DNA from: an uncultured Ectothiorhodospiraceae bacterium
GTDB taxonomy: Bacteria > Pseudomonadota > Gammaproteobacteria > Nitrococcales > Nitrococcaceae
Length of the DNA stretch: 43,751 bases
Direction: 5' to 3'
NCBI GenBank assembly: GCA_913056315.1
Contig: CAJXMZ010000006.1
Span: 1 to 43,751 of the forward strand
Shown here: positions 29,178 through 31,332 of the stretch, in pieces
How positions within the stretch are numbered: the first letter of the stretch is position 1
Layout of the letters: each line of letters opens with the position of its first letter
Translations under genes and position numbers: made by a program
Notes under the pieces: generated by a model
The model's database searches: none
What the model saw: the letters and a program-made list of their open reading frames with translations, nothing else
What the model was told of the DNA's origin: nothing

Positions 29178-30470
29178 TTAGCGATAGGACTGCGCGAGTT
29201 CCTCGCGCAGGGCCTTTAATTGCGGCGAAAGGCTCACGCGGTGTTGACCGGGCGTACGCAATTGCTTCAACGGCGCGGGTAATGTTGCCAGCGCTTTTTC
29301 ACATCGCGCCCGAGCGCAGTCAAGATCACCACTGGCCGGCATTTTTAAACGCTTGCCATCACGCATGACCGGTTCGAGTAGGGCGTCGCCTTCCAAATTC
29401 TCGTCCAGCAAACCCAGTGTGTCCTCGCTTAACAGCCCATCGGCATCGTAGTGCCGAAAGACTTGTTTGCGCCCAGGCAGATCGGTTTTACCCTCGGCAT
29501 GCTTACCGCGCGGGCGATCGCGAAAATAATGTAGCTTATAAGCTGAATCGAGAAACGGTGAGTCCGCCGAGGTATCGACATTTGACCCCACGCCCACACC
29601 ATCGATGGGGGCACCCTCAGCCATTAGGGTCTCAAGGCGATACTCGTCTAAACCACCACTGACAATGATGCGGGTTTTCGTCAAACCACCGCGGTCGAGG
29701 ATGTCGCGGGCAATTTTGGCGTTGGCTGCTAAGTCACCGCTGTCGATGCGTACCCCATGCACCTGCAAGCCCTCTGCAGCAAGCGACTGGGCCACCTCGA
29801 CAACGCGTTGCGCACCGCGTTTTACATCATAGGTATCAATGAGCAGCACTACATTGTCTGGATGACTACGCGCAAAACGCTCGAATGCCTCGGCCTCACT
29901 GTCGTGGGCTAAAATAAAGGCATGGGCCATCGTCCCGGAAGCCGGGATATTATAGCGAGCACTGCTCAAGCAAGTGGCTGTGGCGCTAAATCCTGCCATG
30001 TAGCATGCCCGTGCTGCCCACAAGCCCGCTTCGCCACCGTGTGCGCGGCGCATACCAAAATCGATAACAGGCGTACCGTTGGCGGCCAGCGTGCAGCGAG
30101 CGGCTTTGCTAGCGATGAGCGTTTGATAGTGCAGAATGTTCATTAGCCGTGACTCAATGAATTGAGCTTCGGGTAACGGCGCGACAATTTGAACGAGCGG
30201 CTCTTCGGCAAAAAACACGCTGCCCTCGGGTAGCGCGCGAACTTCGCCGGTAAATCGAAAGCGTTGCATGCGCTCGATAAAGGCATTCGAAAAAAGCCCA
30301 GTGTGTTGCATCCACTCAAGCTCGCTTGGGCCGAACTCAAGCTGGCTGAGCCATTCCAGACCTTGCTCAAGGCCGGCGGCAACAAAAAAGCCCCGCTGCG
30401 GCGAGCGCCGCATAAAAAGCTCAAACACGGCCTCTTCGGTCATGTCATGCTCGTAATAGGCCTGCAGCAT
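29178..30470 (-). CDS. pncB: Nicotinate phosphoribosyltransferase; annotated start lies after an in-frame stop within the family's conserved N-terminus
   Basis: IDFGMRRAHGGEAGLWAARACYMAGFSATATCLSSARYNIPASGTMAHAFI, VHGVRIDSGDLAANAK, GVGSNVDT. Same-frame upstream sequence reads MTMNLEQTPLLTDL*ELT-MLQAYY from 30524. Confidence 0.92.
   Translation of the reverse strand: MLQAYYEHDMTEEAVFELFMRRSPQRGFFVAAGLEQGLEWLSQLEFGPSELEWMQHTGLFSNAFIERMQRFRFTGEVRALPEGSVFFAEEPLVQIVAPLPEAQFIESRLMNILHYQTLIASKAARCTLAANGTPVIDFGMRRAHGGEAGLWAARACYMAGFSATATCLSSARYNIPASGTMAHAFILAHDSEAEAFERFARSHPDNVVLLIDTYDVKRGAQRVVEVAQSLAAEGLQVHGVRIDSGDLAANAKIARDILDRGGLTKTRIIVSGGLDEYRLETLMAEGAPIDGVGVGSNVDTSADSPFLDSAYKLHYFRDRPRGKHAEGKTDLPGRKQVFRHYDADGLLSEDTLGLLDENLEGDALLEPVMRDGKRLKMPASGDLDCARARCEKALATLPAPLKQLRTPGQHRVSLSPQLKALREELAQSYR
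29190..29210. terminator. Candidate hairpin at the H-NS-like/pncB convergent junction
   Basis: CTGCGCGAG-TTC-CTCGCGCAG, perfect 9-bp stem inside the pncB 3' end; followed on + by GGCCTTTAATT (weak T-run). Confidence 0.4.
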
Positions 30471-30540
30471 GGTTAGCTCTTAGAGATCGGTGAGCAGCGG
30501 CGTTTGTTCAAGGTTCATAGTCATCAATGAGGTATCCCGC

Positions 30541-31332
30541 TCAGCTGCGCAGGCCGGTGCCGCGGTTGAGTAACCACAGGCTCAGCAACGTGCCGGCTGT
30601 AATAAACCCGATAATGAGGGTGTAGGCAATGCCTAGCGGAATGTCTGAGCTACCGAGTATGCCGTAACGAAAGGCATTGACCATATATAAAATCGGGTTT
30701 GCGAGCGAGAGTTTTTGCCAAAATTCAGGCAGTAGCGATATGGAGTAAAACACCCCGCCTAAGTAGGTTAGCGGCGTGAGAATAAACGTGGGCACGATCG
30801 CAATGTCATCAAACTTCTTGGCAAAGACCCCGTTAATAAATCCCCCCAGCGAGAACAGCACAGCGGTTAAGAACACCACTGATACCGTGATGGGGATGCT
30901 ATGAATACGTAAATCAGCGAAGAAGCTGGCAATAATGGTGACAATTAATCCGGTAAACAGCCCGCGACCGACACCGCCGGCGATATAGCCAGCCAAGATG
31001 ACGTAGTTGGGTGTGGGTGAAACCAGCAGCTCTTCGATATGGCGTTGGAATTTGGCACCAAAAAACGAAGACACCACGTTGGTATAGGAGTTAGTAATGA
31101 CCGCGATCATGATGATCCCCGGCGCAATAAACTCCATAAAACTATAGCCATCCATCGGTCCAACGCGTGAACCAATCAAACTGCCAAAAATAATAAAATA
31201 TAAAGACATAGTAATCGCCGGCGGAACCAGCGTTTGTACCCAAATGCGCAAGTACCGATGCGTTTCTTTCCACACCAGTGTGCGTAGGGCAATGAATGTT
31301 TGCCGAGGGTAAGCTGGATAGAGCGATGCCAT
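30541..31332 (-). CDS. yadH: ABC-2 type exporter permease, YadH-like
   Basis: LVWKETHRYLRIWVQTLVPPAITMSLYFIIFGSLIG; FIAPGIIMIAVITNSY; adjacent to ATPase. Confidence 0.88.
   Translation of the reverse strand: MASLYPAYPRQTFIALRTLVWKETHRYLRIWVQTLVPPAITMSLYFIIFGSLIGSRVGPMDGYSFMEFIAPGIIMIAVITNSYTNVVSSFFGAKFQRHIEELLVSPTPNYVILAGYIAGGVGRGLFTGLIVTIIASFFADLRIHSIPITVSVVFLTAVLFSLGGFINGVFAKKFDDIAIVPTFILTPLTYLGGVFYSISLLPEFWQKLSLANPILYMVNAFRYGILGSSDIPLGIAYTLIIGFITAGTLLSLWLLNRGTGLRS

Follow-up and report, generated by a model that had tools for sequence, protein, structure and literature searches.

The window analyzed here is a stretch of 43,751 nucleotides, contig 6 of the draft genome of an uncultured gammaproteobacterium (G000; 134 contigs, 86.5% complete). 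Its minus strand carries a gene for nicotinate phosphoribosyltransferase, pncB (29178..30524), that runs from an ATG at 30524 to a terminal TAA at 29180-29178; a single TAA within the frame breaks it at codon 15 (30480..30482, minus strand). Upstream, on the same strand, lies a gene of 263 aa (30541..31332) that is intact, collinear in relatives, and 88% identical in the congeners G008 and G009. The minus strand from 30524 to 30468 was re-read and matched exactly the reading given in an earlier note on this DNA: it opens with ATG ACT ATG and continues in a single frame to GAT CTC TAA GAG CTA ACC ATG.

The stop divides pncB into a 14-codon 5' fragment (MTMNLEQTPLLTDL; 30483..30524, minus strand), which in relatives forms the conserved N-terminus of the enzyme itself, and a 430-aa open frame (29178..30470, minus strand), a potential reinitiation product that begins at the conserved Met of the motif PLLTDLYELTM and is without the first 18 residues, including the motif Thr, Asp, and Tyr. 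Because of the in-frame TAA (30482-30480), a mechanical ORF caller begins pncB at the ATG at 30470. The earlier note had described a 14-codon upstream ORF; this length applies when counting from ATG 30524, and it becomes 12 codons from ATG 30518, the start (MNLE...) common to relatives. At six homologous loci (L007, L010, L013, L017, L018, and L020), the usual start position holds CTG, ATT, TTC, TTA, or CTA in place of ATG, and start sites therefore differ within the family.

With the TAA read as Tyr, the protein gave a full-length match to the NCBIfam equivalog for nicotinate phosphoribosyltransferase (NF006696) at 595.6 bits (cut-off 503 bits), and the frame after the stop alone scored 568.5 bits. 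The N-terminal, central, and C-terminal NAPRTase domains of Pfam (PF17767, PF04095, and PF17956) were found in the read-through protein. In its full-length match, its PLLTDLYELTM motif, and its domains, the gene agrees with PncB-type NAPRTases (NF006696, NF009131, and TIGR01513; PDB 2F7F and 4YUB), and it differs from them in that the assembly has a single TAA where they encode the motif Tyr.

That position aligns with Tyr21 of the solved human NAPRT (4YUB), which is named as an active-site residue in two papers (PMC9318686 and PMC9320560), one of which assigns it to chain B of the dimer. The active-site role ascribed to the motif Tyr in the earlier note is thus borne out by the alignment together with these papers, as that of a residue from the partner chain. 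NAMPT, a related enzyme, has Tyr18' as its ring-stacking residue (PMC3019212), and Y18C, a point mutation of this Tyr, has been discussed as weakening inhibitor binding (PMC7235340); by our reading, NAMPT Tyr18 is the positional equivalent of the motif Tyr in pncB. Where PncB has its N-terminal active-site Tyr, the assembled copy has TAA, and this bears on the predicted activity of that copy, not on its descent.

The earlier note had also placed the TAA on the motif Tyr and had proposed a comparison of this codon with relatives. The position was confirmed, and the codon was TAC or TAT in 43/43 homologous loci, with the stop shared by none. These loci comprise 29 from the genus, family, and order and 14 from genomes of many phyla, and they include L031, whose contig equals that of L004 in length (34,006 bases), so that the two are possibly one record. 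The nearest pncB to the window's copy was only 76% identical among the genomes searched. A stop conserved in relatives was rejected as an explanation; the TAA within pncB of G043, a draft genome from another family of the same order, sits elsewhere. In that genome (G043:C157; L076 1297-1299, minus strand), a single in-frame TAA follows FLRWLD and precedes LQFTGDVYA, and it appears to be an isolated event of the same kind. No near-identical sequence was matched in viral contigs, and the literature searched by titles and abstracts held nothing on point about pncB stops or the NAD needs of Spiribacter.

A TAA read as an amino acid, whether through a suppressor tRNA, an altered code, or read-through at this site, would account for a frame open on both sides of a stop that falls exactly at the Tyr codon. 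As in known stop-codon recoding, the in-frame stop stands between two conserved coding parts; unlike in such systems, it is limited to a single gene, is found in none of the relatives read, and occurs where TAA is otherwise a terminator and no suppressor tRNA was found. TAA is the commonest terminator in G000 (ending 97 of the 213 conserved genes checked) and also terminates pncB itself, and the aligned G000 genes contain 2,044 TAT/TAC codons. Given that TAA serves as a terminator and TAC/TAT as Tyr throughout, the code is not reassigned, and a genome-wide TAA reassignment was rejected. No UUA anticodon was present among the readable tRNAs that ARAGORN identified in this 86.5% complete genome (one match at the edge of contig 18 was unreadable); given that ordinary tRNA-Tyr was likewise not found, this tRNA test is limited by the missing part of the genome. 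Recoding of the TAA is scarcely credible in light of these observations.

If the TAA is real, ribosomes could alternatively terminate once 12-14 codons have been translated and start again at ATG 30470, which lies only 9 nt past the stop at the head of an intact frame, and the 430-aa enzyme so produced would be trimmed and of reduced activity. The NAMPT mutation Y18C (PMC7235340) offers a hint by analogy that loss of the Tyr need not abolish activity and that the residue is perhaps not absolutely needed in NAMPT. Against reinitiation, the product would be without the motif Thr, Asp, and Tyr; partner-chain Tyr21 lines the human active site, and all 43 loci keep the Tyr. The AAGAG that had been put forward as an RBS-like reinitiation signal did not withstand comparison, as it is simply the TAA joined to the motif GAG codon, and ATG 30470 encodes the conserved motif Met. 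An ATG occupies the equivalent position in every relative read, and the Glu codon is GAG or GAA in most, so that what looks like a start site consists of ordinary Met and GAG motif codons found in relatives. With AAGAG a by-product and the Met conserved, neither therefore shows a designed reinitiation site. Reinitiation at ATG 30470 is physically possible, and the sequence gives no sign of selection for it; we consider it improbable.

Signs of decay were sought along the length of the gene. In the protein tree, the end branch of the window's pncB was 0.27 vs 0.25 for its nearest relative, and at sites invariant in 16 relatives it carried two private changes vs zero to four in congeners. Its differences to relatives were mostly at third codon positions (pairwise dN/dS, with silent sites close to saturation, was given no weight). 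Besides the TAA, no lesion was detected in pncB, neither a further stop nor a frameshift, in agreement with the earlier description of the gene as otherwise intact. A long-decayed pseudogene is ruled out by the ordinary branch length and invariant-site counts. Given this lack of decay, pncB either remains under ordinary constraint or lost it only very recently.

Other sources of NAD were looked for in G000 and across the 14 genomes of the genus (G000-G013). Neither nadA nor nadC was detected in G000 (86.5% complete), and its nadB-like match was sdhA (succinate dehydrogenase flavoprotein), not nadB; de novo NAD synthesis that would make pncB dispensable was accordingly rejected. A second pncB or nadV copy with the same effect was not found either: none of the genus genomes holds a second PF04095 gene (NAPRT/NAMPT-like), and PnuC was found in 0 of the 14, G000 included. 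Nicotinamidase, present in some of the genomes without nadA/nadC, was not found in G000. The 100% complete genome G005 is also without detectable nicotinamidase. The gene nadE was above the cut-off in 13/14 genus genomes and is present in G000.

Only 4 of the 14 genomes carry nadA and nadC together, and these carriers form a supported clade (99/97) with G000 outside it. In G001, nadA and nadC sit slightly downstream of a uvrB-like gene, and at the orthologous site in G000 the stretch from the uvrB-like gene to a thrS-like gene is occupied by other genes on one unbroken contig (the uvrB-like and thrS-like genes are presumably uvrB and thrS, as recognized from their sequence). Five congeners that are at least 90% complete (G004, G005, G008, G010, and G011) are without nadA and nadC and seem to depend on pncB. 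In G000, pncB is probably the sole NAD route, and a true null would therefore be hard to sustain. Given that no alternative route was detected, a null pncB would be lethal in G000 unless such a route lies in the unassembled part, and the missing part of this 86.5% complete genome could hold one.

In order to place the stop in the context of its assembly, the other genes of the window were compared with three congeners, and none had a stop inside its conserved part. A wider survey aligned 787 kb of G000 (about half of the genome) with 1.27 Mb from a complete congener and yielded 471 aligned segments with ~163,000 codons. Within this half of the genome, the pncB TAA was alone among premature stops in having in-frame conserved coding sequence, with near-identical residues, both before and after it. 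No clear gene of the surveyed 787 kb showed a frameshift. The other stops in the alignments were judged by eye from their flanks to be upstream extensions before the true start or shadow or out-of-frame stretches. At L189 12674-14800, an 893-aa protein of G008 aligned to G000 contig 18 in two same-frame pieces, with ~187 residues of the G008 protein unmatched between them (a variable linker, an insertion, or a deletion).

One stop in this sample corresponds to ~6e-5 wrong bases per base (95% range 1.5e-6 to 3.4e-4), and 0.17 stops would be expected at an error rate of 1e-5. An error rate of ~6e-5 is plausible in a draft consensus, and by this estimate one erroneous consensus base in half of a draft genome is nothing unusual. 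The pncB error, if it is one, was picked out by virtue of making a stop. With no second stop in the survey, the assembly is not visibly error-ridden, which counts against reading the TAA as an error.

A real and very recent nonsense mutation, in a strain that lives on an unassembled NAD route or belongs to a transient lineage, would suit a TAA in an assembly that otherwise looks clean, and the absence of decay is what a fresh stop would be expected to show. In addition, some genomes of the order yielded no pncB. Against such a mutation stand the presence of pncB in 14/14 genus genomes searched, the failure to detect a second NAD entry route in G000, and the five congeners named above, which seem to live on pncB without nadA and nadC. 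On balance, we view a recent nonsense mutation as rather unlikely. The earlier note had listed error, inactivation, recoding, and reinitiation without ranking them; the options can now be ordered, with an error or minority variant favored first, a recent nonsense mutation after it, and reinitiation and recoding lower.

The TAA is best explained as a consensus error or a minority variant in a functional pncB, to which we assign a probability of about 0.6. Under this explanation, the locus would hold an ordinary conserved pncB whose codon 15 was assembled with a single incorrect or minority base (TAC/TAT to TAA), arising either as a draft consensus error or from a variant present in few cells. 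Living cells of the population would most probably make the full-length enzyme, which is predicted to convert nicotinate and PRPP to NaMN, toward NAD, with NadE completing the route. Single-base errors and nonsense variants in draft metagenome assemblies present the same picture, an isolated stop in an intact, constrained gene of a multi-contig draft, and at pncB no observable difference from them was found. The gene carries a single TAA, unique in the survey, its remainder is intact and unrelaxed, and G000 has no other detectable NAD route. We infer that pncB is essential and therefore that the TAA base would not be representative.

The consequences depend in part on which of these explanations is correct. 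If the TAA is an error, it calls for caution only: annotation would label pncB trimmed or broken and conceal what is apparently the only NAD route of the cell. Should the TAA instead be real and fixed, the cell would have an apparently essential enzyme that functions despite lacking an invariant active-site residue or that recodes it; that the sole NAD-entry enzyme is made in this way, by reinitiation without the Tyr or by local UAA read-through, strikes us as very improbable. Whatever the cause of the TAA, most of the genus appears to be without de novo NAD synthesis and reliant on PncB.
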